The notes under the pieces were generated by a model. That model saw nothing but the letters and a program-made list of their open reading frames with translations, had not been told where the DNA came from and ran no database searches. 64,000 nt of DNA from a virus. The position numbers were made by a program, and so were the translations under genes. The stretch is from the IMG/VR virus record IMGVR_UViG_3300040801_003053, positions 1 through 64,000 of that record. One strand, written 5' to 3'. Positions 8,957 to 58,793 of this stretch are shown here, piece after piece. Positions within the stretch are counted from its first letter, which is position 1; every line of letters begins with the position of its first letter.

Positions 8957-8964
8957 ATTTGTGT

Positions 8965-13636: not shown

Positions 13637-13644
13637 AAAAGAAG

Positions 13645-13652
13645 TATATTTG
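13645..13652 (+). promoter_or_regulatory. Candidate minus-7 box before scaffold gene
   Basis: TATATTTG fits the TAnnTTTG consensus and lies 28 bases before the scaffold-like gene start, in the 44-base gap after the portal gene. No TTTG is seen about 20 bases upstream, so it is a weak candidate for an internal late promoter boosting scaffold and capsid transcription. Confidence 0.35.
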
Positions 13653-13680
13653 TAAGTATAAACCAGTAAAATAGAACACG

Positions 13681-14793: not shown

Positions 14794-14871
14794 AGCGGCG
14801 AGTACGCTTTAGCCTGGAGAAAACTACAGAATCGATTGTGGATAGACCCGATCTGGTGGCGAGTACATCAG
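14792..14871 (+). ncRNA. Twin-hairpin RNA leader of the capsid gene
   Basis: Two hairpins have the same seven-base loop GCGAGTA but unrelated stems. The first is AAAGCG/CGCTTT at 14792-14810. The second is CTGGTG/CATCAG at 14853-14871, with one G-T pair. Pairing is conserved while stem sequence differs, which argues for selection on the RNA structure. They sit in the 124-base gap between scaffold and capsid genes. They may be protein-binding translational operators or RNA processing sites. A T-run at 14881-14886 follows but is not adjacent to a stem. Confidence 0.55.
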
Positions 14872-14917
14872 TGATAGTCATTTTTTAATCAAAAGTTTAA
14901 TTTAATACGATTTTAAA

Positions 14918-38631: not shown

Positions 38632-41600
38632 TGAGCATCCATGTTGACAGGCTGAGAGTATTCATCAAGGGTTTGAGTTACGACTTAAATCCTAAAGCTA
38701 CGCAGGATGAAACTTATCAGCATGCAGAGAATCTTCGTCTTTACTCAAAAAAAGGACGGCTTTCGCTTGTCAGCATAAAAGGAACGACTGTTTTTTACGA
38801 GAACGCGGCGATCAAGAAATACCTTGGAGCTTGTGCTTTTGAGGATCAGCTGGTACTCATGATCAAGTTGGATAATGATTATGCTCAAGAAATAAATACA
38901 GGAATCAGCTATCAGTTTACGGTTGTTCCTCAGAGTGTCACTCACAACTATCAATCGACAGATCCGGATCCCGGACTTGATCTCCAAGCTGGACTTCTTA
39001 CTGAACAAGTCTTTGATTCTGTTTTGGCAGAAACACAAGAAATTGAAGTCATTGACAAATCCAATGAGAGCTGTCAGACTCCTGTTTCGGCATTTAACCT
39101 CAATGACTACTACGCCCTTTCAAATATATCTGTCCCCAATTACGAGCATTGCATATTGGACAATGAAGATACGGTACCGACAAACAATGGGGAGTACGGT
39201 GACAGTATAAGTGACGCGATCCTGGTACTTACCAAAGATGAAGACGGTAATATTACGGATGAAATCGTCTGGAATGGATTCTTGAACCTTGACCCCAATA
39301 GAAAACTGGTCATGGTTGGCCTTGATGAGAACGCTCATTATCGCAGAGTCTACATGACTGACGGGATGAATCCTTACCGAACATTTAATTTGAAAGATCC
39401 TAACTTGCGTTACAAGATAGCCTCTACATTTGACATTGTTCAGGACATTTCCTTATTGCGTCCCGAGGTTGCTTTGCTTGAAGAGAATGGTCAACTTCCG
39501 GCCATGAGCGTTCAATACTTCTATCGACTCATTACAGAAGACGGTCAGGTATCTCTGATTTCTCCTTTTTCAAAACTTATCCAAGTTGTTAAAGAAGATC
39601 GTAAGCATGAATTTGCCGGAGGAGACATAGATGAAATCACCAATAAGGCTGTTACTATTTCATGCCCTATTCCGGAATATCTGAAATACAATCAGATTGA
39701 AGCCTATGCTCTCGAGTTTAAGGCCCCTGGCATTCCATCTGGCATCAAGCAGCTTGGAGTAAAAGACGTTCAGGAAATTGTAACGTTCAAGCATATAGGT
39801 ACAGAATCCGATTACAGCGATACGCTAACACTTACTGAGATTCTGACCAACACAAATACGTTTCGGTATTGCAATGCTTTGGAGATCCATAACAATAAAC
39901 TTGTGGCCGGTGGTTTACGCAACCAACCCTACCCCCTTGGAGTAAGGTATCTAGAAGATCAGTTTGTATTGAAAGCTTACGATGCTGACGGAAAGGCTCA
40001 CAACTGCCTGATAAACCCCTCTCCTGACGTTTATCGCTATGTAAAGCCTTCTGATACCTCAAAGAGTTTAAGTGCCGTTAAAACGCAATATACGCGCATT
40101 TTGGTGTTTGGCAATTTCAATATACGCTTGCCCAATCTGGATACAGGTGATTTCATCAAAACAACTTTTTATAGCGATACGGATCAATACGAGAATTACA
40201 TACCCCAAGTGGCTGAATGGTTGGAAGGCGAAGATCTTTCCATATTTCCAAATTTAAAAGTGGAATACGTCAATAGCACGCTTTTAATGTCTTTGGAGAA
40301 TGAAGCGGTTACTGTCGACTTATTGCGATACAGATTCAGCATATCTCAAGACCAGGCTATTGTAGAATTTGATAACGAATATGTCATTAATACCGATTCT
40401 GTAGATCCTACTGATCTTGTTTTTGGCGCATCCAGTCATGGTTACAATCAGGGTACAGGCATACGATTAAGTTGGGAGAGAGAAAGCGAACTCTTGCTTT
40501 CCAAAACACCAGAACAATATACCGGAGGAAATATTCTTCCTCTAGAAACACCAAGCCTTAAAAAAGGCTTTATGAAAGAAGAGATCTATCGACTTGGATT
40601 GACGTTCTACAAATCGGGAGCGGCTTTGTTTACGATCCCCATGGGAGATATTCAGGCCCCGGCTCTTGGTGATACAGTATCATACATTGACCAGCAAGGC
40701 AATGCAATTATTACAGACGAAAAATACAGAAATCAATTTGTAGATGGCAATAGTCTTTATGGCGAAAGAGTTGTCCTTAAAGCTGAAGTAAGGCTTGGTT
40801 GTGAAATGAAAAAGTTTGTTGACGCTTACCAGATTCATTATGTGCCGAGAGACGAATTTAACCGGACCATACTGGCACAGGGTATATCAGCTCCTTTGCA
40901 ACGAGTGATGCGCTTTAAGGATATCAATGAGTTTGGAGAAAACAAAACACCAGAGACTTATCGCAAATGGACATTGCCTTATAAGGGAGGACCCTTATTG
41001 GAGCGTTTCGGGTTTGAAGCTTATGATACCTATGGGGATCAATTTGAAGAAGATGTGACCGACAGTGAAGAAGTCATGAAAAGACGAATCATGACGCATC
41101 GAAAGCTTATGTATTTTGATTCTCCAGAATTCATCTACAATAAAGTTTCTGATGCCTTACTTGAAAACTCTACCGTCGAAGTCAAAGGCCGATTGAAAAC
41201 CGACCATAGCCGGGTTTTGTTTTATGACATGATGGTGCCTACACCCAATGCAAATCCATTCAACGGTGTTAACCAAAATACTTTCAGCAAGAAAATATGG
41301 GAAGGTGGCAGTAAGCCTGATGAAGAGCTGGAAGCATTTTTCGCGGGCGAAGATAAAAACACACATCCCTACTGGATGGACGTTTCTGTGTTTGCAGGCT
41401 TTGAGCCTTTTGAATCTTCTCATGATATTTCTGAATCAGCGATTGTTGGAAATGGAGAAATCATTCCAGCGGTCCTAATGGGAATGAGCCATCCCATAAG
41501 CAACAATGCGCTCAGTCTTGGAGAACCCTCTATGTATTATTCCTCTCATTGGAGAAAGGGGAAAACAAGTGGAGGAACAGTATTCAATCAAGGAGATATT

Positions 41601-43265
41601 GCCGCCTGTCAATTTGGTTTTACCAGTCAGCGAAGCTCTGGATACAGAACCCTATTTATCAAAACAAAAGAAGATCTCTTTACCGATGAGTTTTTAGGCC
41701 CCGAGATTATAGATGTTTCTTCAGCTCATTTCCGTGGCGATCGATGGACAACCAAACCCACTGTAGATTCCCATGCTCTTATTAATTTGAGAATGGACAA
41801 TGCCGATACGGTATATGGTGGAAGAACAAAATACGCCCTGTCAAGGAACCTCTACTCTCCATTGAGTAAAGTGATCCCAGTTCATAAAAAAGGCAACCAG
41901 GCGCAAATTTCAAAGGTTAATGGCGATGTTTATACAACGCTCTTCATGCGTACAAAGAACTCATGGCATAACCACAAACCTTTCAAGGAATTTAAGGAAA
42001 TGCAGAATCACGATGACCGGACGGACAACTCTCGTGACATAAACGAATGGAATCGCCCTTCTGCATGGATGTATGCCGTTGTTCTTGAAACGCAAGTCGA
42101 GGAAAGATTCAATCATCATAACAGGCCCTATCGTGTAGAGCCACCTTTTGATTTCGGTATTGAACAAAGAGAAACAATAAACCCAGCGTACCTTATCGAG
42201 GATGAGCTGAAAGATTTCATCCCAAGACCATTTACATTCCAGGATGATCCTTTGCGTACCGATCAGCTTGCCGCTTCTAAGGTCAAGCTTGCCGGAGACT
42301 ACTACGATTCATTTACGGTATTCCTTGCCAATGATTTTTATCCTCTTGGCAAGAAGTACGGAGATATTACCAATCTCGTTGTTGATAAAGATCAGTTGTT
42401 TGCGATTCAGGAAAGAGCGACCAACGCGGTTGTCATGGATCCAAAAGACACCATTCAAACCGAGGAAGGTCGAGAAATTCAACTGGCAACAGGTACCGGT
42501 AGAGTTTTTCACGATCACAAAGTCATAAGCAAATACGGAACCGGCATCCGAGGATCCGTAACTCAATCTGATTTTGGATTCAGTTTCTTTGATGAAAGAC
42601 GAAATGAATTTATACGAGGTGCAACACCGCTTACCCTTGAGCGTGACCTGGCTTTTAAGATGCGGGAGTATTTTGATAATGATCCTGTAGTAAATGTAGA
42701 AGGGTGGTATGATGATTACTACAAGGAAACAAACCTTATGTTGATAAGCAAGTCGGGGATAAAAAGAACACTCTCGTTCAATGAGCTTCAACAGGTGTTC
42801 AATGGATGGTATGATTACCAGGCAAGCAAATATTTCCGGTTTGACAACATCGTTTTTGCGCCAGAAGCAGACGGTGGTTATGAACCTAAATTGCACATGC
42901 TCAATACCGGAAATGAATTGGAATTGTTTGGCGTGCAAAAAAATGCTAAATTGGGATTGATCGTTAAAGAAGCGGGTCCAGCAATATTTGAAAGTATTTC
43001 TTTAAGCCTCAATCAAAATCTTCCTGTCGATCAGGTAACGATTTACGACAATAGAGATCAAAGCGATATTCGTGTTATAGCGTCCAATCACTTCCGATAC
43101 GAAATCCTTGAAGGGGTGCATCATGTCCCGCTAAGCAACATGATGGATCGGGCAGAAAAACGAGGAGAGTGGGCTTATATCGAAATCAATATGAGCATAC
43201 AGTCTCCCGGCCAACGAATAGAATTGATGAAAATGATAGCACATTTAAGAGCAAGTTTGATATGA
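38631..43265 (+). CDS. Muzzle-like tail protein, 1544 aa
   Basis: The N-terminal region contains DETYQHAENLRLYSKKGRLSLVSIKGTT, a pattern characteristic of the large muzzle (stabilisation) protein that forms the barrel of the crAss-like tail. The following body is a very large beta-propeller-like protein with periodic strands (FRGDRWTTKPTVDSHALINLRMDN). Length and position (before the cargo genes) fit. It would close the tail and interact with fibres. Its 3' end overlaps the next gene start by four bases. Support is pattern recall and synteny. Confidence 0.7.
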   Translation: MSIHVDRLRVFIKGLSYDLNPKATQDETYQHAENLRLYSKKGRLSLVSIKGTTVFYENAAIKKYLGACAFEDQLVLMIKLDNDYAQEINTGISYQFTVVPQSVTHNYQSTDPDPGLDLQAGLLTEQVFDSVLAETQEIEVIDKSNESCQTPVSAFNLNDYYALSNISVPNYEHCILDNEDTVPTNNGEYGDSISDAILVLTKDEDGNITDEIVWNGFLNLDPNRKLVMVGLDENAHYRRVYMTDGMNPYRTFNLKDPNLRYKIASTFDIVQDISLLRPEVALLEENGQLPAMSVQYFYRLITEDGQVSLISPFSKLIQVVKEDRKHEFAGGDIDEITNKAVTISCPIPEYLKYNQIEAYALEFKAPGIPSGIKQLGVKDVQEIVTFKHIGTESDYSDTLTLTEILTNTNTFRYCNALEIHNNKLVAGGLRNQPYPLGVRYLEDQFVLKAYDADGKAHNCLINPSPDVYRYVKPSDTSKSLSAVKTQYTRILVFGNFNIRLPNLDTGDFIKTTFYSDTDQYENYIPQVAEWLEGEDLSIFPNLKVEYVNSTLLMSLENEAVTVDLLRYRFSISQDQAIVEFDNEYVINTDSVDPTDLVFGASSHGYNQGTGIRLSWERESELLLSKTPEQYTGGNILPLETPSLKKGFMKEEIYRLGLTFYKSGAALFTIPMGDIQAPALGDTVSYIDQQGNAIITDEKYRNQFVDGNSLYGERVVLKAEVRLGCEMKKFVDAYQIHYVPRDEFNRTILAQGISAPLQRVMRFKDINEFGENKTPETYRKWTLPYKGGPLLERFGFEAYDTYGDQFEEDVTDSEEVMKRRIMTHRKLMYFDSPEFIYNKVSDALLENSTVEVKGRLKTDHSRVLFYDMMVPTPNANPFNGVNQNTFSKKIWEGGSKPDEELEAFFAGEDKNTHPYWMDVSVFAGFEPFESSHDISESAIVGNGEIIPAVLMGMSHPISNNALSLGEPSMYYSSHWRKGKTSGGTVFNQGDIAACQFGFTSQRSSGYRTLFIKTKEDLFTDEFLGPEIIDVSSAHFRGDRWTTKPTVDSHALINLRMDNADTVYGGRTKYALSRNLYSPLSKVIPVHKKGNQAQISKVNGDVYTTLFMRTKNSWHNHKPFKEFKEMQNHDDRTDNSRDINEWNRPSAWMYAVVLETQVEERFNHHNRPYRVEPPFDFGIEQRETINPAYLIEDELKDFIPRPFTFQDDPLRTDQLAASKVKLAGDYYDSFTVFLANDFYPLGKKYGDITNLVVDKDQLFAIQERATNAVVMDPKDTIQTEEGREIQLATGTGRVFHDHKVISKYGTGIRGSVTQSDFGFSFFDERRNEFIRGATPLTLERDLAFKMREYFDNDPVVNVEGWYDDYYKETNLMLISKSGIKRTLSFNELQQVFNGWYDYQASKYFRFDNIVFAPEADGGYEPKLHMLNTGNELELFGVQKNAKLGLIVKEAGPAIFESISLSLNQNLPVDQVTIYDNRDQSDIRVIASNHFRYEILEGVHHVPLSNMMDRAEKRGEWAYIEINMSIQSPGQRIELMKMIAHLRASLI

Positions 43266-43750: not shown

Positions 43751-45565
43751 ATGGCAAAACCACCAAAATTTGAAAGAGACAATTTAAAGGCCATTTACAA
43801 TTACCTGCGTTATACCCACGATTTAAGTGAAATGGATACCCGGGCAATCGTTGGGAACTTGCTTCAAGAATCCCTTGGCGATCCATCTGCTGAAAATGGA
43901 AATGCTTATGGTATTGCTCAATGGTTGGGATCAAGAAAAAAAGAGTTGATGAAAAAAGAGAACCCCGAATCTCTTATGACACAACTCGATTTCATGATGG
44001 AAGAGCTTAAAGGGCCAGAGAAAAAAGCCTGGAACAAACTTCAAGAGGCAGATACCCTTGAAGCCAAAACCAAAGCCTTCCGAACACATTATGAACGCCC
44101 TGGTGAAGATGAAGCTCGTGATGATAAAAGGGTAAGGTATGCTGATTTTGATTCTACCACTTTTGAACTTCCACAAACATCTGACTTGCAAAGTCCAAGA
44201 AAAGTGGATTTTGACCCGATAGAAATAAGAGATCGGGTAAGTAAAAAATACCAAGAAAATATTGATGCTCTTGAAGGCCGTATCAAAGAAATTTCCGCTG
44301 ATGAAAATTTAACAGATCAGGAAAAACAAGGGCAATTAAAATCTATTATGCAGTCATTGGAAACAATGACAAATGAGCGTCAAGGAGAAATTGACCGGGA
44401 GATTCAAAATGCAGCAACAGAGTTTACCAAGAAATACAATAAAGAAACCAAGGAAATTCAGGAAACTCAAAACAAGAATGCTGGAACGCCAACAGCAGAA
44501 CAAGCTATTCAAGCAGAAAGCAACAAAGCTGACCAGTGGGATCAGATGATCAAAAAGACATTTGAAGATGCTGGCCTTCCTGTTCCATCAAAACCAGACT
44601 TCAATTATAACAAAGGCGATTACAAAAATCCACTGAACATACCTGCCTTGGCTCAAGGCGCCATGGGTCTTATTGGCCTGTCTCAAGCACAAGAAGAAAT
44701 GCCGGAGCAGGAGTTTAAGATCAGTCCGGCCGATCAGCTTTTCTTGGAAGAGAGTAAACGTATCAGCGAATCGGGAATCCCCGTAGCTGAAGAAGCGAAA
44801 CTGAAGAATGATCTCAAAGAAAGCTTTAAGATTGGTGTTGACAACTTAACTCGAGCGTCGGGAGGTGATCGCAACGCTGTACTCGCCAATACAGGAGCTT
44901 TAAGCGCGGCTCAAGCTAAAGCGATAACAGAGCTTCAGATTGCTGATCAAATGCAAAAGAACAAAGGATTTGAGCTTTATAGCAATGTGTTAGACCGAAT
45001 AGAAACTCGCAGACAACAAGTGGCTGACAAGAATTTTAATTTGAGTGTCGCTGAACGTAACCGTCGTGTCGGAAATGCGGAGAATTTGGCTAACAATGCA
45101 TTCTCTACGATGATGGATGAGATTGCCTACCAAAGAAATAATGGTCCGGGTAGTGCCAATCACATGATGAGAGAATTTATGAATGTTCAGATGTTCGGTC
45201 AATCGAACGCCGAAGACAAAGGGCAACCTTATTCAAAATCGTGGAGAGAAGCTCAAGATGCCAAAATGATAGCCAACTACAATGCTGAAAATGCTAAATA
45301 CAACCAGAGTCAATTCAGAAAAGAACTTCTTGATCAGATAACACCTGGTCAAAAAGCATTTTTACAAGATCAAGGATTTAATGCAGAGACTTTCAATTGG
45401 GACGGGATAAGCAATGTGAATCAAATTATTGAACGTTCCGGAGGACGAAAAATTCAAAACAGAGTTCAGCCTGTATCACAAGCCGGGTTTGATATGGTTC
45501 TTCCTGCTGTTGACATGGATTATAGCCAGATCATGGAAGAAGCCAAAAAACTACGAAATATATAA
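43751..45565 (+). CDS. Virion protein with tail-lysozyme domain, 604 aa
   Basis: The N-terminal ~110 residues are a phage tail-lysozyme-type domain. GNLLQESLGDPSA and YGIAQWLGSRKKEL match the lysozyme-like pattern GNxxxES...YGIAQW, with E40 as probable catalytic acid. It would cut peptidoglycan during entry. The remainder is charged and coiled (about 175-260, then 340-520), lacking clear domains and resembling internal cargo proteins of crAss-like virions. It follows the small membrane-active protein and precedes further cargo. Confidence 0.8.
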   Translation: MAKPPKFERDNLKAIYNYLRYTHDLSEMDTRAIVGNLLQESLGDPSAENGNAYGIAQWLGSRKKELMKKENPESLMTQLDFMMEELKGPEKKAWNKLQEADTLEAKTKAFRTHYERPGEDEARDDKRVRYADFDSTTFELPQTSDLQSPRKVDFDPIEIRDRVSKKYQENIDALEGRIKEISADENLTDQEKQGQLKSIMQSLETMTNERQGEIDREIQNAATEFTKKYNKETKEIQETQNKNAGTPTAEQAIQAESNKADQWDQMIKKTFEDAGLPVPSKPDFNYNKGDYKNPLNIPALAQGAMGLIGLSQAQEEMPEQEFKISPADQLFLEESKRISESGIPVAEEAKLKNDLKESFKIGVDNLTRASGGDRNAVLANTGALSAAQAKAITELQIADQMQKNKGFELYSNVLDRIETRRQQVADKNFNLSVAERNRRVGNAENLANNAFSTMMDEIAYQRNNGPGSANHMMREFMNVQMFGQSNAEDKGQPYSKSWREAQDAKMIANYNAENAKYNQSQFRKELLDQITPGQKAFLQDQGFNAETFNWDGISNVNQIIERSGGRKIQNRVQPVSQAGFDMVLPAVDMDYSQIMEEAKKLRNI

Positions 45566-45580
45566 TACCACCATAGAACT

Positions 45581-47506
45581 ATGAACACAGGAGGATTATT
45601 AGGACTTACCAAAGGAATCAATTCGCAGGAGCAAGCGAATCAGGATTTGCGTACAATGGCGCAAATGCTTGGCATGAAGAAAATGGAGGAAGCCGAGCAA
45701 ATGCAAGCTGAAGAGCAAATCAATGCTACGATTCAGAAGGTACGGGATCAGACCAACATGCTATTGGAAAATGACCGACTACAAGTAAACTCAAGGGCTC
45801 AAGAGTTAAGGCAAGACATCCGCAAAAAGCTTCGCGATCTTGGTGGTGACCGAAAAGCTTTTCTCAAAAACGGAGGCATGCAAACCTTGAGAGACTACGA
45901 GTCCAAGATCCTTGACAGTGATGAGTTCCTGACCTTTAAAAACAACAAGATCAACATGGAGAAAATCTTGATGGTTAAAGAGTCTGGGAAAGGCCATTTG
46001 CTCAATCAACGTGACGTTACAGCTCTGACAGAATATCAAGCCAATGGAAAAGGGAAAATAACCTATACGGGGCTGAATCACGAAGTAGAAATTGACCCAA
46101 TGGCTTTTGAATATGGGCAACAAGTAACTCCGGCCCAAGTCATAGCCTGGGGAAACAACCGTCAGGCAATACTCGCCAACTTTGAAGCAGACATGGGCAT
46201 ACCTTACCCGCACAGCTATAATGACGCGCTCCTGCAAGCTTACGTTAAAAAGAAAGGCTACGGGGGCATTGGAATGAATCAAAAGCTTCAGGCGAGGCGC
46301 ATGGCTTTAGCGGCTAAGGCCCAAAAAGATCTTTCAGTACGATCGGTGGCCGGCTCTATTCAAAATCTTGTTGGATCCGGAGAGAAACTTTCCAGAAGCA
46401 AGATCAACGATACGTCCATTCTGAACAATGAGGCTATGGGCCAGCTGGGGGCGAAACCTCTCAAAACGGTTGCTTACGATCAGTCCAACATATTTTTCAA
46501 TCAAGCTCCTGTTTCTGACCAAGGACTTGATAAGGGCTTGGGTATCTTTGATTACTTCAAAAAAGGAACGGCTTACAAATTGCGTGGTGGTGCAGAGATC
46601 CTTAGTGGTTTTGGAAGTAAGTTTGCTGAAAACTATTATGGAGTGAGTAATATTGCTCCAACAGAAGAAGGTACATACAACTTAAACCCAACAGAATTGC
46701 AAGGCACTTTTGACGCTAAAGGGTCATCCCTGCAGAACAGAAGCACTATTCGCGACTGGAACAACAATTATAAGCCTCAAGAGATTATCATGGCTTACAA
46801 AGGGACAAACAATAAAGGCGAAGAAGTGTTGATTACAGACAAGTATGCCGATAAAAACGGCAAAAAGCTTGCTGATGATAATCATGAGCTTTATGGCGGT
46901 GCAGACATTCAAGGCTCTAAAGTGATGGTGGTCCGAATGCATGACCCAAAAGAACCCGGGTTTGATTACTACCAAGAAATCCCTGCTTCTTCTCAAGCAC
47001 ATGCCTCATGGCTGAATGAGTCTATGGGTAAATGGATGAACACAACCGATGAGCGTAAAGAGGCCCTGCAACGTACAGCAATCTCTCAAGAAGCTGAAAT
47101 GCTGACCGAAAAAGAAGCTCAGATTATTCAAGAAAGAATGCCTGACATTGCCGCCCAAGTGCAAAAGCAAGCTTCCAACAGCCGTGTGTTCACAGGCCCT
47201 GAAATGAGCGTTGTACAGGCTGATTATATGTCACCAGAAGGGCAAACACGAAATGCCCTGATTCAATCGTTTGTGACTGCCGTATCTCAAGGGGATGGAG
47301 ACTTTGCTCAGAATTATCTGGAGAGCGGAGCCTTTACTGAATATATGAAAGCCTATGGCGTAGAGGAAATGCTTCATGATTACAGTGTAAGTGATGAGCA
47401 AATTCTGGAGGCTATTTACAAGGCCACAACAAAACCGGGAAGTGAGGTAAGCGATTACCAGCAGTATGAACTTCTAAGAAACATTTACCAACAAAACAAG
47501 CAATAG
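45581..47506 (+). CDS. Virion cargo protein, 641 aa
   Basis: The protein begins MNTGGLLGLTKGINSQEQANQDLRTMAQM, a helical Gln/Met-rich start. The middle holds mixed alpha/beta regions (PYPHSYNDALLQAYVKKKGYGG, a segment with periodic aromatic residues). No enzymatic motif is evident. It lies between the tail-lysozyme protein and the giant RNA polymerase gene, separated from the latter by one base, so it is most likely packaged or ejected with them. Confidence 0.6.
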   Translation: MNTGGLLGLTKGINSQEQANQDLRTMAQMLGMKKMEEAEQMQAEEQINATIQKVRDQTNMLLENDRLQVNSRAQELRQDIRKKLRDLGGDRKAFLKNGGMQTLRDYESKILDSDEFLTFKNNKINMEKILMVKESGKGHLLNQRDVTALTEYQANGKGKITYTGLNHEVEIDPMAFEYGQQVTPAQVIAWGNNRQAILANFEADMGIPYPHSYNDALLQAYVKKKGYGGIGMNQKLQARRMALAAKAQKDLSVRSVAGSIQNLVGSGEKLSRSKINDTSILNNEAMGQLGAKPLKTVAYDQSNIFFNQAPVSDQGLDKGLGIFDYFKKGTAYKLRGGAEILSGFGSKFAENYYGVSNIAPTEEGTYNLNPTELQGTFDAKGSSLQNRSTIRDWNNNYKPQEIIMAYKGTNNKGEEVLITDKYADKNGKKLADDNHELYGGADIQGSKVMVVRMHDPKEPGFDYYQEIPASSQAHASWLNESMGKWMNTTDERKEALQRTAISQEAEMLTEKEAQIIQERMPDIAAQVQKQASNSRVFTGPEMSVVQADYMSPEGQTRNALIQSFVTAVSQGDGDFAQNYLESGAFTEYMKAYGVEEMLHDYSVSDEQILEAIYKATTKPGSEVSDYQQYELLRNIYQQNKQ

Positions 47507-47507: not shown

Positions 47508-50500
47508 ATGGGAATCATTGATGATGCCAGAATGGGTATTGACCCGATCAAGGAAAAAGCACAGCAAGATGCAAACAGCTCCATGGCTCAGACAACAAAT
47601 GTTGGCGAGCAAGATTTTAAAGAGCGAAGAAAAGACGAGCGTATTGCTGCCCAAGAGACTCCAACCTCACAAGGCATGGAATCTTTGCAGGGGCCACAAG
47701 AGGGCGTTATAGATCCTGAAGTGACCCAGCGCGGATGGGCTGAAGAGTTTGGTCATTCCCTGGTACGTGGTTTTGGTAAACAGGTCATTGGCGGCACCGG
47801 TGATGTGATACAAGCTATTCACGGCATTATTGATGAAGATGCTATCGAGGGCAACTTAGCTTCCCGATGGTTGCAAGAAGCAGGCAACAGTATTGCTGAA
47901 GGCCATGAGAACTACCTAAGCGAAGATTTTAGAAAACACATGGAAGACAATGCCTGGAGCATAAAAACTTTCATGGAGCCTGAATTTTGGAGCAATGATG
48001 TGGCTGAGGGTATCCCTATGCTTCTTGAAATGATCTTCCTTTCCAAGGGGATCTCCGGTCTTGCCAAAAAGGGGGCGTTAAATGTCGTCAAGAAAGTAGG
48101 CAAGAAAGGTGTTCGCGATGTAGCGGGATTGACCGGGAAAGGAATTGATCAAACTATTGGAGCTGCAAAGCTTGGTGAGTTTGGTGCAGGTGCTGTTGAC
48201 ATGGCGGCCGGTGGTGTGACAATGAACATGTATGCCGGATTGATGAATTCGGCTGAGCTTGTCAATATGCATAAAAATGACGTTGACGAAAATGGGAATC
48301 CTCTTTACACCAATGCTGAGCTTTCACAGATGGCGGCCACATCATTTACAAACAACATGGCTTATTTGCCTGTCGATGCTTTGTCATGGGGTCTGACTTA
48401 CGGTAATGCCGGGAGAGCGGTAATGAAAGGCATGAAGGGCGTCTTGTCCAAGCCAGGTCAATTACTCAAAGGCCCTGCAGAAAGTTTAACTAGCAGCGCC
48501 AAAATGTTTGCTCAGACGGTAAAGCCGATGGCAAACGTATTGAAGAAAAGAATACTCCCATTGAGTAAGCCAGCGGCTGAAGGCCTTGAAGAAACCTTTC
48601 AGGAATCTTTTGAAGAGTGGGCCAAACTTAAGGCTAAAGAAAAAAGCGGTATTTACGACAGCTCACTTCAAGAGAATGTTGGTGAGTTTATGGACTTCTA
48701 CAATAGCAAAGAAAATCAGCACACAAAAGCCGTTTCTATGGCTTTGGGTATGTTAGGTGGTGCGGGATCCAATGTGGCCAACTCAGCCCGTAATATGGTC
48801 AACAGGATCAATGAAGAGGCTGAAAAGAACTTCAAGTATTACGACAAAGCTGAATTGCTGAAAAACGTATATACAGATTCCGACATGAAAGAGGCCCAAA
48901 TGGAGGCCGTGCATGACATGATGCTCAATGATATGTACCATGACGGAAAAGTGAACATGGTCTACATTGAGGATCTCCATGAGAAAGAAGCAATCGATGA
49001 CGAGGTTTATAAAGAATTGAAAAACAAAGCCACCGCTATTGAAGACAACTGGGGCAAGGCCGAGCTTATGAATGTGAGGGGGAAAATGGCATATGGAAAA
49101 GCGAAGATGCAACAAGTCCATATTACAGAACATATGGCTAAGCTCAATGAAGAATTTTCTGACAAACGTGCGGAGATCCTTCAAGGCCCTGCTTCAGATC
49201 AAACCAAAGAAACTCAAATCAAGAAATATGAACAAGAAAGAGACCAGGGCCTCCAAGCCGCTCAAGAAGCTCTTGCCGTTAATGCAGCCGTTCAAGAATC
49301 TTTGCTTAGTGGCGATCAAAATGGAATTAAGCCGTTACAATCAAAATTTGTTACTAATGAAGATGGTAACGAAGAACTTATAAACGGACTGACCCCTGAA
49401 CTCTACAATGAGTTTTATACCAAGACCGATGAAGAGGTTCTAAATGAACTCAAAAAGAACAGGGTTCAACGTACAGCTTCAAAAGTCTTTGGTGGTTTTG
49501 CAGACCAGCTTACAAACGCCAGGGAAAGAGAAGTGTTTAAAAACATATTTACAAAAGTCAAAGATGGCGCAAAAGAAATGGCAGACAAGGCGGGTATTAA
49601 TGTTGAAGCCGCCGAAGATAATAATCAACAAAGTAAGGGTGATCAAGCAAAAGAAACAACAACTCTTACACCAAATGCAGAGAAAGGCGGGGTAGACGAA
49701 GGAAAAACCACAATAGAACGTCAAGAGCCGAAACCAATCAGTGGCTTAACTGGTGATCAGAACTGGGCAGAGCTTGTCCAAAATGCGGAGTACGAAAAAG
49801 AACTTGACTCAATTACAGATCAAATGACAGAAGCCGGGATATCAGATCCCGACATCACTGTTGCTATCAATAAGAAAAGAGAAAGTTTACAAAATGGGAC
49901 AGAAACACCGCAAGCACCCGATGGAGAGCAAGGAGCAGGTAATGCTCAGGATGGTGCGACAACTGGAAACAAAAATACGAAAGCTGGACAGAGAGATCTT
50001 AAAGAAGTACAATCTGAAGAAGGCACTGCAGAGGGATCTGATCGAAAAAGTACGTCAATTGCAACGCCCGCAAGAAGGATCGTCAAGATGGCTAACAAAG
50101 GAGGAACGTCAGGCTTTGAGGAACTCAACGAAAAAGACACAACGATTGTCGAGCAAATTGTCAAATCCGAAAAATTCAAAAGAACCCCCGTTGAGCGAAT
50201 AGCCAAAATTGTTCGTGCAGCCGGATTCATAGGAACAGAGGATGACGTTGTTTTAGACTATGTAAAGAACAAAGTGGGACCCAACTATGTAGGGCGTGCT
50301 TCTCGCGCTAAAACGCCAACAGGGCGCATGTATTTCCGCGATATAAAAAATCAGACAGATCACGATACTTGGGTAAATTCTGCTTTGGCTGAATTGGAGT
50401 TTGGGTACAGTACCATGAGTAAAGTGATGGTGCATAATCAATATCTGAGAAAATTGTTTCCAGGCACTTACATTAAAAGCTTTGCCATTCAAGATCTTTA

Positions 50501-53500
50501 CCGGGCTGTTGGTGAAGATGCTGTCGGCTATGCTTTAGGGTCTACAGTTTATATTGAACCAAACCAATGGGAACAAGATGACCTTTTTATGCATGAGTTT
50601 TCGCATATCTATTATGCGACAATGAAAGACACTCAAGAAGTGGAGGAAATTTTAAAAGCGGCCAGGGCCGATGAAAACTTCAGAAAATCCGTAGAGCAAG
50701 CTTATTGGGCTGATGTTATGTACAGGGCAACCAAGCCTATACCTCTTCTGAATCTTGCCAAAGGGGATCTGATTAATGTCGGGGCCGTAGGAGCAAACCT
50801 TAAAGTCACCGATCCTGAAACCTTCAACAAGAAAATAAGCATCATCATGAAGCGTTTGGAGAAGCTTCCGGACAGTGAACAGGAAGTAATCAATGATGAG
50901 CTTTTTGCCAATTACTTACAAGGAAAGCTATCCAAGGAATTCAATAAATTCTTTGATCCTAAAAAAGAACCTATGCGTCAGCGTCTGACCCGGAACTTCT
51001 GGAATACGCTGAAAAGGAAAAGCAACGAAAACGATGCTAAATACGTGGTTGAAAGCGGAACGAATTACAAGACCGCTAATCCAGATGAACAGGTCGCTTA
51101 CGACACCATTGTCAGAACATTCAAAGACACTTTGAAAATGAGGGGAACGACAGTGGCCGGTAGGCGAGCTGTCTCTCTGGAAAAATATGAGGGCATCCAA
51201 GACGCGGCTTTGGCAGCTGTCCATAACTGGGAGAAGGCTGAAATGAATATGGATCTCAAAGAGCCATACCAAGACGAGCTTGATGAGAACACTCAAGAAG
51301 ATGTTGGTATTGACGGTTATGACTGGGACAAGACCTTTGAGCGTATAAGCAACAAGGCTCGAAAGATCCTCAATAGCTTCATCAAACGATACAAACAAAA
51401 TCTCAGAGCGGAGCAGGAAGCAGAAGCCAAAGAGAAAAACCTACCTGTCCGACACCGTAACATTGAGGAGAGGCATTTTGTTAGCTTAATAATGAACTCT
51501 GCCCGAGAGGAGGAAAATCCTTTTGTGTGGTCCGCTAAGGTCATGAATCCAAATACGGAGAATCATGTACTTAAAAAGTTTCAGGAATACATGAAACAAA
51601 CTTATGGATCAAACCGAGGGCCTATTCTTAGAAGCATGCATAAGATCTACAATAATCAGATCACATTGCAGACCGTCTTTGGTCATACTGATTCTAATGG
51701 AAATACAGACTTCCTTTCTGGAACATCTTATAAAGACATGAGTCAGGTTAATTGGATGAGCACTCAGTTTATTGACAATCTTGATGAGCATCCTACTCTG
51801 CCCGGTCTTGTAGAACGTATTCGCAGTGGTCGCGGAACCGATGAGGATTATAAGTCCGTCATTCAGATCGCAACAGAATCTACTTCTTATGTTTTTGCTG
51901 ACGAGATCATTGGTGGGAATACTGTCAATTTCCAAAATGGGAAAACAGATATTAAAACATTCCTTGACCATTACCTGGGCATGGAAGACGTTTCTGATGG
52001 TGTTGCTGAAATGATGATGAATATTGTTACAACAAATGCTATTTATTCCTCAGATGCAGTAGTACGAAGCGTCAAAGAAGATAAAAATGGATTCTCCGAT
52101 TATACCGCTTCCAAGCACCTCAGAAATGCTTTGTTCTCAAGCTTTGAGGAAATGCAAAACGACTTGAAGCAGGGAATGTCCAAGAGAGCTTTCTTGAACA
52201 AGTACACGAATATGACTTCCAATGAAGGCAAGTATCGTGTAAAAGCCAGGAATGAGCTGACCGAGTTCATATATGACAATTACCAGAACAACAATTTGCT
52301 CCCTGATATCTCTCTTTACCTTGGTGATATTAATGATCGTCAAAATAAAAATGTTTCCTACAAGGACACCGATGCCGAATCACTGTATGTTAGTGACGTG
52401 ATCCGTTTCCTGAAAGGGGATAACGCGTATTTGTCTCCATTGAACACAATGGGCGAATCTAAGCGTAGCATGATGACGATGATGCCCAAGTATGAGGCAG
52501 GCACAGAAAAGGCGCGTACAGCCCTTAAAAGAGCTTATCAGGCTTATGTGATGACTCCGGGAGATAAAGACATCAAAAGCTTACAGGAATGGAGTAAGGG
52601 TGTTCAAGATTCCATCAATCAAGAAGTTGCCTATTTCCAAGCGCACAGCGAAGTGTACATGGAGTACAATGATTTTATCAATCCGGAAAATGAAAATGAA
52701 GGTCTTTACAATTCTCGAGGTGTACTCACTTCTTACGGGAAAAGACGCATTGCGGATTATGTGACTTCAACGATTATCAACAAAGCTTTTGTTCACGAAT
52801 TGCTTACGCCAACGACAGAAGTCAAAGATATTGTCAAGCGGAATAAAATGAACAACTCTCCGTTTATGCGCCTTTCTCACAAACTCAAGTTTGAGAACGT
52901 GCCTATGCCAGCGGAGTTTGTTGACGCAATCAATGAGCTTGGAGAGCAAAACGATTCCGGTCAGTACATAACCGATGTGACTGCAGCTCGTATTGAAGAA
53001 GCCAGTAGAGGTGTCCTGAATTTGAACAAAGGATACAAGATGGTCAACAACCATATTGAAAGAGACAATCCTAATTTTCGAGGACGCAAGCTGGGATTGA
53101 AAGGGTATGTGACCATTCTCTCTGCAGAGCAAGTAGAGAAGTTTCCTGCCCTCAAGCCAATCTACGACTTGCTGAATAAGCGTCAAGAACGTTTTGATGC
53201 CTACGCAAAAGAAAATGGAGTCAGCACTGATGATGTTCTTGAGCATCCGGAAACCGCCATGGACTACATAGCCATTGCCTCTCCTGTAAGCTCTGAAAAG
53301 CAAAACTTCTACAACAAGGAGCAGCTTGACACGATCAACAATGCCACACTTGAAGCCTTAGCTGATCCTGAGAACATGAAAGCTTATGAAGAGTTTCTCG
53401 ATGGTATGTACTACGATGAGAACGGAGAGTTTATGGGTCTTTCTGGAAACAACTTTGGACCACAAATGCGGATGGATGAGGACAAGCGAAAAGCTAAAAT

Positions 53501-56500
53501 ACCTGTCCAGATGCGAAGCGCCATTATGGTCAATGCCGGAATATTTGACAACATTGCCGAAGCTGAAGAGGTGCTGAGCAAGTATAACAGTGCGGCCAAT
53601 ATCATGCTTCAAGAGAATCTTCTTGCTGACATTATGCATAAAGGGGTTATCAAAAACGATGTAGAGCTTGCCAAATTTATTTTGAAAAACTCTAACCCGG
53701 ATGAGATCAATCCACGCGACAAGCGATTGTTGGAAGTTAAAAACGCAAGCATTCATAACCCTTGGCTTTCTCAGACAGCCCGTAACCTGGTTAAAAACCT
53801 GATCATTAAAAATGGAAACAACCTGCAAGGGCCGGGAACCATTGCTCAGCAAAAATCAGAAGTAGCCGGCAAGCAAGTTGAGAAAGGCAAGCCCTCTATG
53901 CCGCTAGAGTTTTACCGTGAAGCAAATGGTAAGGTTCTACCTATGGAAGGGATACTTCCTGCCTACATGAAAGATATGGGTGTTCGCAAAAGGAAATATG
54001 CTCCTTTAGAAGAAGTGCGAATCGACCTTCTTTCTTCAAGAAAACTCCAAGAGGAGTTTGGAATCAAAGGGCGTGAGCAAGTAGAGCAATTCATCAAAGA
54101 TCACAGTTTTGAATTTGATGGTAAAATGAAGTACTACATTCCTGGAGAGAATGTACTTGCCACTCGTGTGCCTAGCTCCGGGCCTTCTTTTACAGGCGTG
54201 ATGGAAGCCGTAGATTTTGACACTACGGGAGCCTCTAACGTCATGATACCAACCAAATTTAAAGAAACGATCGGTTCTGATGACGATGGGGATCAGCTCT
54301 TCATAAGCATACGGGACAAAGGAAATCGTATTGGTGCCATGGAGTACAATGAGTTTTTTGACTCAGCTGTTAAGAAATGGCTTACTCGGGAGATGCAAAC
54401 CACCCTGACAACCAAACTCGATGATTCCAGAGAAGTCAACAGGATCATAGAGGGCATGACGATAAAAGGCAAGCGTGAAAATCCAATGCCTTTCTCTCCT
54501 GCCTGGGCTAAAAAGAATCATAATGACGCTCTCGGTGCCAGCCAGACGGTAGGTATTGCTTTTAATCTGCACAGGATATTCAATAGCGTTGCCGCCTATA
54601 AAACTCCACTTAGGAGAGTTGACCGACAAGGAAGCTCTTACGACATGAGCATCGGCATCAATGGTCAGGTAGAAAATCAATTCAATGATAACGAACAAGG
54701 TGTAAAATCGCGTATCCATAAATCCAACACAATTACACAAATTGTATTGGACAGCTCTAAAAATGGCCACACAGAAGCGTTAGGGTTCAGCAAGAACTCT
54801 ATCGGATACGCGATGATTCTCACCAACCTCGGGTTTGACCTGGGAACAGTAGGAGAATTTTTAAACCACCCAACAACCAAAGAGTATGTTGCTCGTATCG
54901 CCTCAAAAGACAACCTCTACGCTCCTTATGAGCATGAGTATGGGGTATTGAAGCAAATGGTCAAGAAAGTCGATCGTAACCAAGCTATGAGCGATCTCTA
55001 TACAGGGGGCAATATTGACTTGAATAATGACTCCAAAGAAACCAAGATCAAGATACTTGGTCTTTTGGACTACATGAATAAAATTCATGCAGACATTGAG
55101 AAAGTCAACAAAGTGATGAAAGGACACAAAGAGATCTCTCCGGATCCTTTCGTTGTTGAAAAGCAAATGCAAGAATATCGGGACCTGGTATCAAACAAAG
55201 GAGCGACAACCTTGCTGTTTTCAGATGAGTTTTCTGTCAACCCGGAAGCCGAAGGGTACCTGTCCAGCATGAAACACACCCAAGACATTGTTGGTAAGAT
55301 GAGTATTGAATACTCTCCTGCCAACAGAGAGATCTACAATGAGGTGGCAAGAAGTGTATTCCAAGGATTTGGTAAGGACTACAATTCCAAGCTTGTTGGT
55401 GACTATCTTAAAATCTACAACGAAGCAAAATATTGGAACATCAATAACAAGTACACCCGTTCTGAATTAACCCGATTGATTGCTCCAAAAGATTTCAATA
55501 ATGAAGCCGTTCCCGGATCAGCTATAAAATCATTTGAGGATCTGGTCAATGAAATGCTTGAGCAAACAAGTCCAAGCACCGAAAATGCAGAGCTTGAAAA
55601 CACGGCATTCCACAAGAATAAATTTTTGAACCTGGTACAGGCATTTGGTGTTGAGAATGACATGTTCAATGAAAGCTTAGGCTTTGAGATCAAAACAACT
55701 CCTTATGCTCGCTCGAACTCATTAAGTCAAGAAGAGATTCAGGACGTTGCCAAATCCTTTGATGAATTGCCGGCAGACTTCAAAGAAAAGATTCTTGTCG
55801 CTGACCTGGTACTCAATGGGTGGAAAGGGAACAATTCTATATTCCCGTTTTTGCCTGACTATGTGATTGAATCAATCAATGAGAATGCAGGGCGCATTGC
55901 ACGCGATCAGTCCACTCCAAGCAGAGAGAAGATTGAACAAGTCCGAAACACAATCATTAATTTGATGATGTCCCGGAATGCAGGAGCCTTTAAAAATGTC
56001 AACATTAATGTTCCTGTCTTAAAAGACGCTCCACCGCCAACAAGCAAAATGGTAGCCAATGAAATTGCAAATGAGCTTGGCCGGGATCCGTCTTTCTTTG
56101 AAAATATTGCAAAAAAGAAAGATGACAAGGCAGTGCCTGTCCTTTATTATAAACTAAATCGCAGAGGCAATGATGGTCAAAAAGTTGATGCAGGCCAACT
56201 ATTTATCAAAGTAACCGGTATTGATCCAGTTACTGATAAAGTCGTACAGAAGTATGATATAAACAAGGGTCGCACACAGGGCCAGTTAGGAGTTTCTAAA
56301 TACAAGAAAAGACAGATCACTTTGGCGAAACTTGTTGAAGAGGGAAGAATTGAAGTAATCTCTCCAGAACCAACAAGCCCTAAAAATATTGACCTGCTTG
56401 TAATTCCGGATGAAGGCACCAAAATGCCTACCCCTGAATGGACTCAAAAAAAAAAGTTTAATCAGAAGTTAGGTCGAGCTGCCAGAGCAGACCTGGAGAG

Positions 56501-58793
56501 TTTCACCTCAGATCGCAAGCTTACTCCAGAGGAATACATGGACGCACAGCAGTTCCGCTATGGTGTCGATTCCGTTAAACGAAACATGATGTATCAGCGT
56601 TATCTTAAAGACAAGGATAACGCTAATGCATTGGCTCAGGGAGAGTACCGCAAAGAGAAGATCCTCAAAATGAAGCCTGATCAGCTTTTAGAAGTCTACA
56701 AGGAGTTTGCTAAAAAAGACATCTACGCCTACAGCAATATTATCGTTCCTGTCCTGGAAAGGATTACTCACTTCGCGATTAATGAACAACAGGAGCTTAC
56801 AGGTGTTCAAGAAGGTATGAAAGACATCAGTGTGCTTAAAGCTTACTTGCAGACCAACAATATAGACTCCTCTCATCCCGGCACTCAATACGCTCAAAGA
56901 ATGCTGGAAGGACAGTACAAGTCTTTTATCAATGAGAAGAAGCAATTCACCAAAAGGATCAATGAGGCCACAAACAATCTCTACAATGAGAAGTTCAACG
57001 ATCAGCGGTCCTCAATTCCTTTCTTTAATAGGCTGACCCGAGCCGCTATTGTCGCTTTCACTCCAAGAAATACCATGTATGAGAAATTGTATGGTAACCT
57101 GGTAAAGATTGACAAAAGAGAGCGATCTGACGGCACAATATTCAGGGCCTATAAAATGCATTCTCCCGAAGTGCTTAAGGCCAAGTACCTCAAGAAGCAG
57201 ATCTCTAAATCGGAATACGAATTTGCCCAGGTGTTTCAAGACACCATAAGCAAGCTTTCATTTACCGACAAAAAGGATTTTGAGACAGGTGGATTTGTTC
57301 CTGCCGTTGCCATGAACCGGATGGAGAAATTTGCCACTCGTGGACTTCTTGGACTGTTCAGCTCATCCAGAACACAGGATGAAGCCATGATGAATGTTAA
57401 GATGAATTTCCGGGGAAACACAGTTAGCTTTAAAGAGATTGAAGATTACTTCCGGAGTACGGCAAAGAACAATTACAAAAACATTAAAGAATACGTCACA
57501 CTCAAAGCCAAGGCGATCAAGCTGGTGAACCAAGGCAAAAATGAAGATGGAAGCATGCTGGTCACAACCGCTGTATCTACCAAAACATTGATGGGCGATG
57601 GTGTCATGGAGCGATTCAAGGAAGGAAAGTTTATCAATGAGAATGAGCTTGTAAGCATGGACTTGAATAAGGCTCTACATGACTTTGTTCACGCCTCTAT
57701 GTTTTCTCATGGCTATGGAGACTTTAAAGGCTTTGTAGGGCTTCAGTCGGTCATTGACGGCTTACTTATCCATAACCGAAAAAAAGGATTTGAGAATCAA
57801 AATAAATTTGTTCAGCGCGTAATGAAAGATGGATTTCTGACGGGCAATATACGCAAGAATGAATCCATGGCTGATAAGACCTTAAATGGATTGATCAGGG
57901 CCAACCTCTTGTACATATTGGGGTACAAGGCTTTGATACTACAGCATGGAGCATATGCTATCAACAACCTTGTTGTGGGTAAATACCACAATATAAAAAA
58001 TGAAGGTGGCCGAGCTTGGATAACCGGAGAGAAGCGTTATTGGGGGGTAAGTGCTGACTCCGGTTTCGGTCATCGTAAAGCAAATGGGATCCTCAAGAAT
58101 TTGAATTACATGACTTTCAACGTCTATGACGAAGTTCCTTTGGAAAACAAACATGGATTGGACGATATATTTTCAGACATTGCTTTGATGCCTATGACAG
58201 CGTCTGAAAACTGGACTCAAAAAGTACATTACTTGGGCCTATTGACAGATGAAGAATGGAAAAAGTTTGACCGTGACGGAGACTACCTTCCGGGCGTAGA
58301 GAAAATTTCAAACCAACGACTTCTTGAAATCGAAGAAGAAGTTAAAACGGCACATGGTAAAGGCTACCAGGTGATAGATCAGCGCATGATACAAACGTAC
58401 AGTTGGGGTCGTGCAATCATGCAGTTCGCTCGATTTATTCCAACGATGGTATATGACCGCTTTGCTCCTGAAGATGTCAATATCTATGGACAAAAGCATG
58501 TCGGCTCATTACGCAAGACCTGGCAGGTAATCCATGAAGCCATGAGCGGAAACATGAGCGTTAAAGAATTCGCCGCTTACAGGAAGTCCTTGCCCGCCCA
58601 CGAACGTAAAGCTCTTGACCAAGGACTCCGAGGAATGGGCCTTACCACGGCAGCCGCTTTCTTAGGGGTACTTGCTAATTCAGAGATAGCCACGGAGCTT
58701 GTAGGTGATTCAAACTACCTAATGAATCCAGACAAGATGCAATGGAAAATTGTACCGAGCCTGGTCAATACAACAAAACAAATAATTTTGTGA
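47508..58793 (+). CDS. Giant virion RNA polymerase / metallopeptidase, 3761 aa
   Basis: Residues 1-480 are a hydrophobic, Gly/Ala-rich ejection-type region, then a disordered linker (about 640-870). A zinc peptidase motif H1029-E-F-S-H1033 with probable third ligand E1131 (NDELFANYL) follows. A NFG-x-Q...KIPVQ pattern at 1982-2001 and the signature VLATRVPSSGP...SDDDGDQLF (D2258-D2262) match the beta-prime-type catalytic loop of multisubunit-type RNA polymerases (DFDGDQ). crAss-like phages package such single-chain polymerases. The C-terminus (about 2800-3761) is unrecognised and helical. Confidence 0.85.
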   Translation: MGIIDDARMGIDPIKEKAQQDANSSMAQTTNVGEQDFKERRKDERIAAQETPTSQGMESLQGPQEGVIDPEVTQRGWAEEFGHSLVRGFGKQVIGGTGDVIQAIHGIIDEDAIEGNLASRWLQEAGNSIAEGHENYLSEDFRKHMEDNAWSIKTFMEPEFWSNDVAEGIPMLLEMIFLSKGISGLAKKGALNVVKKVGKKGVRDVAGLTGKGIDQTIGAAKLGEFGAGAVDMAAGGVTMNMYAGLMNSAELVNMHKNDVDENGNPLYTNAELSQMAATSFTNNMAYLPVDALSWGLTYGNAGRAVMKGMKGVLSKPGQLLKGPAESLTSSAKMFAQTVKPMANVLKKRILPLSKPAAEGLEETFQESFEEWAKLKAKEKSGIYDSSLQENVGEFMDFYNSKENQHTKAVSMALGMLGGAGSNVANSARNMVNRINEEAEKNFKYYDKAELLKNVYTDSDMKEAQMEAVHDMMLNDMYHDGKVNMVYIEDLHEKEAIDDEVYKELKNKATAIEDNWGKAELMNVRGKMAYGKAKMQQVHITEHMAKLNEEFSDKRAEILQGPASDQTKETQIKKYEQERDQGLQAAQEALAVNAAVQESLLSGDQNGIKPLQSKFVTNEDGNEELINGLTPELYNEFYTKTDEEVLNELKKNRVQRTASKVFGGFADQLTNAREREVFKNIFTKVKDGAKEMADKAGINVEAAEDNNQQSKGDQAKETTTLTPNAEKGGVDEGKTTIERQEPKPISGLTGDQNWAELVQNAEYEKELDSITDQMTEAGISDPDITVAINKKRESLQNGTETPQAPDGEQGAGNAQDGATTGNKNTKAGQRDLKEVQSEEGTAEGSDRKSTSIATPARRIVKMANKGGTSGFEELNEKDTTIVEQIVKSEKFKRTPVERIAKIVRAAGFIGTEDDVVLDYVKNKVGPNYVGRASRAKTPTGRMYFRDIKNQTDHDTWVNSALAELEFGYSTMSKVMVHNQYLRKLFPGTYIKSFAIQDLYRAVGEDAVGYALGSTVYIEPNQWEQDDLFMHEFSHIYYATMKDTQEVEEILKAARADENFRKSVEQAYWADVMYRATKPIPLLNLAKGDLINVGAVGANLKVTDPETFNKKISIIMKRLEKLPDSEQEVINDELFANYLQGKLSKEFNKFFDPKKEPMRQRLTRNFWNTLKRKSNENDAKYVVESGTNYKTANPDEQVAYDTIVRTFKDTLKMRGTTVAGRRAVSLEKYEGIQDAALAAVHNWEKAEMNMDLKEPYQDELDENTQEDVGIDGYDWDKTFERISNKARKILNSFIKRYKQNLRAEQEAEAKEKNLPVRHRNIEERHFVSLIMNSAREEENPFVWSAKVMNPNTENHVLKKFQEYMKQTYGSNRGPILRSMHKIYNNQITLQTVFGHTDSNGNTDFLSGTSYKDMSQVNWMSTQFIDNLDEHPTLPGLVERIRSGRGTDEDYKSVIQIATESTSYVFADEIIGGNTVNFQNGKTDIKTFLDHYLGMEDVSDGVAEMMMNIVTTNAIYSSDAVVRSVKEDKNGFSDYTASKHLRNALFSSFEEMQNDLKQGMSKRAFLNKYTNMTSNEGKYRVKARNELTEFIYDNYQNNNLLPDISLYLGDINDRQNKNVSYKDTDAESLYVSDVIRFLKGDNAYLSPLNTMGESKRSMMTMMPKYEAGTEKARTALKRAYQAYVMTPGDKDIKSLQEWSKGVQDSINQEVAYFQAHSEVYMEYNDFINPENENEGLYNSRGVLTSYGKRRIADYVTSTIINKAFVHELLTPTTEVKDIVKRNKMNNSPFMRLSHKLKFENVPMPAEFVDAINELGEQNDSGQYITDVTAARIEEASRGVLNLNKGYKMVNNHIERDNPNFRGRKLGLKGYVTILSAEQVEKFPALKPIYDLLNKRQERFDAYAKENGVSTDDVLEHPETAMDYIAIASPVSSEKQNFYNKEQLDTINNATLEALADPENMKAYEEFLDGMYYDENGEFMGLSGNNFGPQMRMDEDKRKAKIPVQMRSAIMVNAGIFDNIAEAEEVLSKYNSAANIMLQENLLADIMHKGVIKNDVELAKFILKNSNPDEINPRDKRLLEVKNASIHNPWLSQTARNLVKNLIIKNGNNLQGPGTIAQQKSEVAGKQVEKGKPSMPLEFYREANGKVLPMEGILPAYMKDMGVRKRKYAPLEEVRIDLLSSRKLQEEFGIKGREQVEQFIKDHSFEFDGKMKYYIPGENVLATRVPSSGPSFTGVMEAVDFDTTGASNVMIPTKFKETIGSDDDGDQLFISIRDKGNRIGAMEYNEFFDSAVKKWLTREMQTTLTTKLDDSREVNRIIEGMTIKGKRENPMPFSPAWAKKNHNDALGASQTVGIAFNLHRIFNSVAAYKTPLRRVDRQGSSYDMSIGINGQVENQFNDNEQGVKSRIHKSNTITQIVLDSSKNGHTEALGFSKNSIGYAMILTNLGFDLGTVGEFLNHPTTKEYVARIASKDNLYAPYEHEYGVLKQMVKKVDRNQAMSDLYTGGNIDLNNDSKETKIKILGLLDYMNKIHADIEKVNKVMKGHKEISPDPFVVEKQMQEYRDLVSNKGATTLLFSDEFSVNPEAEGYLSSMKHTQDIVGKMSIEYSPANREIYNEVARSVFQGFGKDYNSKLVGDYLKIYNEAKYWNINNKYTRSELTRLIAPKDFNNEAVPGSAIKSFEDLVNEMLEQTSPSTENAELENTAFHKNKFLNLVQAFGVENDMFNESLGFEIKTTPYARSNSLSQEEIQDVAKSFDELPADFKEKILVADLVLNGWKGNNSIFPFLPDYVIESINENAGRIARDQSTPSREKIEQVRNTIINLMMSRNAGAFKNVNINVPVLKDAPPPTSKMVANEIANELGRDPSFFENIAKKKDDKAVPVLYYKLNRRGNDGQKVDAGQLFIKVTGIDPVTDKVVQKYDINKGRTQGQLGVSKYKKRQITLAKLVEEGRIEVISPEPTSPKNIDLLVIPDEGTKMPTPEWTQKKKFNQKLGRAARADLESFTSDRKLTPEEYMDAQQFRYGVDSVKRNMMYQRYLKDKDNANALAQGEYRKEKILKMKPDQLLEVYKEFAKKDIYAYSNIIVPVLERITHFAINEQQELTGVQEGMKDISVLKAYLQTNNIDSSHPGTQYAQRMLEGQYKSFINEKKQFTKRINEATNNLYNEKFNDQRSSIPFFNRLTRAAIVAFTPRNTMYEKLYGNLVKIDKRERSDGTIFRAYKMHSPEVLKAKYLKKQISKSEYEFAQVFQDTISKLSFTDKKDFETGGFVPAVAMNRMEKFATRGLLGLFSSSRTQDEAMMNVKMNFRGNTVSFKEIEDYFRSTAKNNYKNIKEYVTLKAKAIKLVNQGKNEDGSMLVTTAVSTKTLMGDGVMERFKEGKFINENELVSMDLNKALHDFVHASMFSHGYGDFKGFVGLQSVIDGLLIHNRKKGFENQNKFVQRVMKDGFLTGNIRKNESMADKTLNGLIRANLLYILGYKALILQHGAYAINNLVVGKYHNIKNEGGRAWITGEKRYWGVSADSGFGHRKANGILKNLNYMTFNVYDEVPLENKHGLDDIFSDIALMPMTASENWTQKVHYLGLLTDEEWKKFDRDGDYLPGVEKISNQRLLEIEEEVKTAHGKGYQVIDQRMIQTYSWGRAIMQFARFIPTMVYDRFAPEDVNIYGQKHVGSLRKTWQVIHEAMSGNMSVKEFAAYRKSLPAHERKALDQGLRGMGLTTAAAFLGVLANSEIATELVGDSNYLMNPDKMQWKIVPSLVNTTKQIIL

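Follow-up and report, generated by a model that had tools for sequence, protein, structure and literature searches.

The window covers positions 1 to 64,000 of an IMG/VR virus record that is 75,553 bases long, and it encodes a giant protein. Judged by profile comparison and structure prediction, this protein is three phi14:2-type transcription-block gene families, gp67, gp66 and gp65, fused into a single chain. We consider it very probable that it is a fused three-family virion polymerase which enters the cell with the DNA to transcribe early genes after being packaged in the capsid, and which bears a HExxH domain, a likely zincin. Most of this confidence applies to its identity as a polymerase and to the fusion of the three families; for a peptidase role it is much lower. 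The open reading frame (ORF) is laid out as follows.

47508..58793, + strand: giant ORF, 3761 aa, in one frame from an ATG start without internal stop
47508..49187, + strand: N-terminal region, residues 1-560, related to phi14:2 gp67 and crAss001 gp47 (hhalign)
49575..50087, + strand: charged low-complexity linker, residues 690-860 (sequence)
50325..51017, + strand: HExxH (zincin-like) domain, residues 940-1170 (homology to the domain of giants L010 and L007)
52245..55511, + strand: two-barrel RNA polymerase core, residues 1580-2668 (AlphaFold pLDDT 73.8, pTM 0.67; Z 17.2 to 6VR4)
56385..58790, + strand: gp65/gp49-type C-terminal domain, residues 2960-3761 (hhalign)

The single fused ORF of 3761 residues described in the initial annotation is borne out, and the motif positions given there (VPSSGP at 2221, DDDGD at 2258-2262) are exact. 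The protein has a computed mass of 424.9 kDa and a pI of 6.0. RVPSSGP occupies residues 2220-2226 and HEFSH residues 1029-1033. GSDxDGD was absent from all 2000 shuffles of the giant's own composition, and the chance expectation per shuffled giant is 0.073 for HExxH and 0.05 for D.DGD. Conservation was counted over ten aligned full-length giants, the window protein and nine relatives that are 21-31% identical to it, and the ORF is unbroken in all ten. The linker is the least conserved part of the chain (mean conservation 0.29-0.34) and residues 2960-3761 are the best conserved.

The reading of the core as a crAss-like gp66-type single-chain two-barrel RNA polymerase holds, both in the predicted structure and at the level of sequence profiles. 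Three features within it are central to the comparison.

53817..54410, + strand: beta'-type double-psi barrel region, residues 2104-2301 (structural superposition)
54279..54293, + strand: DDDGD catalytic triad, residues 2258-2262 (motif and invariance)
54498..54593, + strand: bridge-helix candidate, residues 2331-2362, GASQTVGIAFNLHRIF (long helix, model residues 752-783)

Residues 1580-2700 were modelled with AlphaFold from 11 sequences without templates. The initial annotation had called for a structure prediction, and the model has the two-barrel fold; of the outcomes named there as refuting, a missing double-psi barrel around residue 2258 and a lack of homology to gp66-type polymerases, neither occurred. 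Its best match among 350,542 PDB chains searched with Foldseek is 6VR4, the phi14:2 virion polymerase gp66 (E 8.3e-18, TM 0.61), and VIA-align superposes 926 residues (model 1-1088) on this structure with Z 17.2 and rmsd 4.9 A. The next structural match is QDE-1, with Z up to 12.1, and the P23-45-type non-virion polymerases (P74 gp62 and gp64) rank well below both. An N4-type virion polymerase was rejected because the core is a two-barrel fold with 6VR4 as its clear best match and not a T7-like single-subunit fold. The beta-prime-type catalytic loop that had been aligned by eye is supported by the superposition of residues 2104-2301 on the large subunits of Pol I, II and III and of the archaeal enzyme (about 107 residues, 2.6 A), and D2258, D2260, G2261 and D2262 of the triad, together with R2220 and P2222 of the Arg-x-Pro element, are invariant in all ten aligned giants. 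The candidate bridge helix aligns with GGKSGVGITAN of gp66. Two further invariant residues, K1844 and K1865, would sit at the expected beta-type barrel.

The profile-profile comparison that had been proposed also agrees with a gp66-type polymerase. Residues 1580-2700 match the gp66+gp50 profile with probability 98.6 and E 1.3e-15 over 618 columns, and a clade-only profile built without L010 still reaches probability 97.4 and E 1.4e-11. In 20 column-shuffled controls of the core comparison the probability was at most 0.43, and wrong-pair profile controls for the core, the C-terminus and the N-terminus all stayed under 1%. The window sequence alone gave no significant match to gp66+gp50 (probability 0.5).

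Both ends of the chain resemble genes that flank gp66. The long C-terminal region had been considered unknown, which is not borne out: it matches gp65+gp49 with probability 96.3 and E 1.6e-9 over residues 3457-3719 (control probability 0.3). A borderline BLASTP match to gp65 lies at the same end (E 0.007), and the sole match of the gp65+gp49 profile in the giant's own record is the giant's own C-terminus (58308-58466, E 0.003). The N-terminus, which had been described as ejection-type, is related to the virion proteins gp67 and gp47: residues 1-560 match their profile with probability 88 and E 3.2e-6 (wrong-pair control probability 0.2). This is the weakest of the three family matches. Residues 81-450 form a Gly/Ala-rich stretch (22% vs 14% overall), and hydropathy of residues 1-560 revealed no transmembrane-type hydrophobic stretch. 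With the core, C-terminus and N-terminus matching gp66/gp50, gp65/gp49 and gp67/gp47, the chain corresponds to three neighbouring phi14:2 genes, and the rest of the giant is accounted for as neighbouring virion genes, fused. A second DRDGD, at residue 3588, is unrelated; it was weighed as an additional metal site and set aside for its lack of conservation. The surrounding loop DEEWKKFDRDGDYLPG (residues 3581-3604, window 58248-58319) has an EF-hand-type look in some of the relatives (FDDNGNY, FDENGNY), not in all.

Relatives of the giant were reached in viral contigs through alignments only. Searches of Pfam, PHROGs and PDB sequences with the whole giant returned no credible match. When the polymerase cores of the clade were compared with PHROGs, nothing matched, and the clade C-termini gave no more than isolated marginal matches (E 0.004-0.005), all to unnamed families. 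A single-sequence scan of viral contigs with the giant found no relatives, and the exact pattern DDDGDQL was not found among them. The gp66+gp50 profile failed to detect the giant in its own record because it is too thin; the richer clade profile did match. Among named phages, tblastn found only the cr114_1 giant (E 2e-3) and one unannotated fecal contig (4e-2). The best direct match there is also the cr114_1 giant, which BLASTP aligns in the catalytic region with E 8e-9. Compared by BLASTP over its full length, the window giant had no significant match to gp66, gp65, gp50, gp49 or gp47 beyond the borderline one to gp65. The full-length members of the clade (L006/L012 and L013-L020) each have one intact ORF of 3,901-3,993 aa in the same gene setting, and the ORFs of L007, L008, L009 and L010 measure 5796, >3528, 3969 and 4820 aa. 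Environmental crAss-like contigs commonly encode giants of about 3,900-5,800 residues in a single chain. An unusual status of the window protein on account of its size is therefore not supported, as gp66 is one of three adjacent genes and other contigs hold giants of 3,901-5,796 aa.

The second domain of interest is defined by two sites.

50592..50606, + strand: HEFSH, residues 1029-1033 (invariant H-E-H)
50898..50900, + strand: E1131, candidate third zinc ligand (Glu in all ten giants, on a helix modelled with confidence)

As initially described, an internal HExxH region is fused to the polymerase, and H1029, E1030 and H1033 are invariant in 10/10 aligned giants. The domain matches that of the giants L010 and L007 (L010:12161-13123, L007:12116-13048) with hhalign probability 96.2 and E 2.7e-9. 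It precedes the polymerase in the window clade and follows it in L010 (residue 3030 vs triad 2286) and L007 (3764 vs 2998). The invariance and the homologous post-polymerase domain indicate, from alignments, that it is a real, movable domain that has moved within giant chains. The AlphaFold model of this domain is poor (pLDDT 47.7 overall), and its confident parts are the HExxH helix at 184-200 (block pLDDT about 66-90) and the E1131 helix at 287-303. Foldseek with this low-confidence model found no fold match; a zincin fold is therefore not claimed. Further HExxH motifs are found in gp47, gp65 and cr114 gp21; for gp47 and gp65, profile comparison with the domain gave no link, leaving common descent unsupported. 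The 5,796-aa giant of L007 also has a PD-(D/E)XK nuclease-like domain (L007:13049-14500, PF12705 E 1.6e-5) and a second HExxH at residue 1264.

We give the domain roughly even chances of having a zincin peptidase role. With rather less than even chances, the protein is a virion polymerase whose HExxH domain is a structural or degenerate zinc-binding module for packaging or ejection, with no active peptidase. Comparison with Pfam and PDB sequences matched no peptidase family, and neither such a family nor a fold was recognised for the domain. The HExxH domain of the N4 vRNAP lies in the C-terminal region needed for encapsidation (PMC5512222), and the available portion of a further report ascribes no peptidase activity to it (PMC12633501). 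However, the H, E, H and downstream Glu are invariant in ten giants of 21-31% identity to the window's, which speaks against a purely structural module because such a module would not need them.

The giant lies in a crAss-like setting.

8935..16585, + strand: crAss-like head block with terminase large subunit, portal, one further ORF and major capsid protein (phrog_6681, phrog_6547, phrog_11589; PF23898)
38631..43265, + strand: crassvirus muzzle protein, 1,544 aa (PF25731, E 2e-69)
43751..45565, + strand: 604-aa ORF with an N-terminal phage tail lysozyme domain (PF18013, E 3e-23; phrog_9570)
45581..47506, + strand: 641-aa ORF directly upstream of the giant, in the cargo-gene position (conserved neighbour in relatives)

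The capsid protein matches Crass_capsid. The closest terminases among named phages, from gut crAss-like, Flavobacterium and other phages, are ~24% identical, so this crAss-like phage is divergent and probably comes from the environment. Counterparts of the 641-aa ORF have 631-680 aa in seven relatives (L013, L014, L016, L017, L019, L020 and L021) and 618 aa in L018. The order of muzzle, cargo-sized ORFs and giant matches the phi14:2 and crAss001 blocks. Several other ORFs deserve mention. A 143-aa ORF just 3' of the giant (58795-59226) has a weak Peptidase_M15_3 match below the cut-off (E 0.0015) and is a possible endolysin. Among the tail genes, an 823-aa right-handed beta-helix protein (30715-33186) and a 1,694-aa protein with a SWM repeat (25634-30718) are candidate fibres or depolymerases.

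This setting bears on two other readings. Two-barrel polymerases that are not virion components are known, such as P23-45 gp64 (PMC10770324), and the giant could likewise be an early or middle polymerase made inside the infected cell. We regard this as improbable, since the giant closes the same-strand structural block directly after the cargo-sized ORFs and its N- and C-termini are related to virion proteins of crAss001 and phi14:2. Still less probable is a polymerase fused to a tape measure, as in gp96 of the Thermus phage P23-45, a 5,002-residue chain that contains both a DxDxD polymerase and a metallopeptidase domain (PMC10770324); fold and gene context led to its rejection here. The muzzle protein and crAss-like head genes point to a podovirus-type tail, the polymerase is central in the giant rather than N-terminal, and the closest fold is gp66, then QDE-1, with P74 gp62 and gp64 well below.

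For the favoured fused virion polymerase, packaging is inferred by homology to relatives found in virions. Mass spectrometry identified gp47, gp49 and gp50 in crAss001 virions, and these proteins are proposed to be stored near the portal and ejected partly unfolded (PMC10172136). In phi14:2, the annotation of gp65-gp68 draws on MS/MS proteomics, and the polymerase belongs to the virion and drives early transcription (PMC7886860). By homology, the giant would most likely be made late and kept inside the capsid by the portal, and would pass the portal and tail at least partly unfolded. Once injected, it would refold in the cell and transcribe early genes during DNA entry, ahead of host polymerase use, with the DxDxD triad presumably binding catalytic magnesium ions. 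The HExxH domain is most likely a zincin, presumably zinc-binding and proteolytic. Its substrate in the cell would be the polypeptide itself or some host protein; for other injected multidomain phage proteins such processing of the polypeptide has been proposed (PMC5512222), which is a precedent rather than evidence for the giant. A more speculative idea, which we hold to be rather unlikely, is that the domain is a standard movable part of crAss-like virion polymerases and a peptidase that divides the injected giant into working pieces. If true, cutting would give one-gene and three-gene phages equivalent protein sets.

Giant single-chain crAss-like polymerases are already known. A review names giant polymerases, which reach ~6,000 aa, as a hallmark of the crAss-like order (PMC10136315), and the crAss-like transcription block consists of several large multidomain proteins (PMC7886860). 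With these polymerases published, together with metallopeptidase-like fusions in N4-like phages and P23-45, the kind is known, and the window protein is a good further example, not a revolutionary one. This analysis places gp66-type virion polymerases in an environmental crAss-like clade whose divergence puts it beyond the reach of any family profile, and shows the HExxH domain to be conserved in the polymerases of this clade. No description of such a domain in crAss-like polymerases was found in the literature searched, which did not include the main subscription papers, and its novelty is therefore not claimed.

The most similar system is gp67-gp66-gp65 of the Cellulophaga crAss-like phage phi14:2 (gp66 is PDB 6VR4), which shares the core fold, the motif order, the partner families and the gene order behind the tail genes. 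There the families are three adjacent genes (gp67 of 1797, gp66 of 2180 and gp65 of 1421 aa) whereas the window has one chain, and the phi14:2 HExxH sits in gp65, after the polymerase, whereas that of the window giant sits before it. The crAss001 proteins gp47, gp49 and gp50 represent the same three families, and gp47 ends in a HExxH motif; unlike the single chain of the window, they are separate genes, with gp49/gp50 on the opposite strand. Like the window giant, gp21 of cr114_1 (Suoliviridae, 4272 aa, TAG read as Gln) is a single chain with HExxH (1739) before the triad (3242). Its HExxH context is YHEAWH vs MHEFSH in the window, and another large gene, gp20 (4,755 bases), comes after gp21. 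The cr114_1 giant (L002:2464-15282) is listed as a plain CDS, though its frame contains 69 TAG codons and stays open only if these are read as an amino acid.

Virion polymerases of other folds or architectures, those of N4-like phages and P23-45, also bear a HExxH or metallopeptidase domain. The N4-like (Schitoviridae) vRNAP of ~3500 aa is likewise a giant injected virion polymerase with a HExxH domain (PMC12633501, PMC5512222), and the literature describes N4-like polymerases as always fused to HExxH-type domains, again a precedent and not evidence for the window protein; its T7-like single-subunit fold is unrelated to the two-barrel fold of the window. The repeated pairing of injected polymerases with HExxH-type domains makes cutting on entry a testable question. 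P23-45 gp96 resembles the window protein in combining a two-barrel polymerase with a metallopeptidase domain within a single virion protein (PMC10770324), but it is a tape-measure fusion with an N-terminal polymerase, from which the window giant differs.
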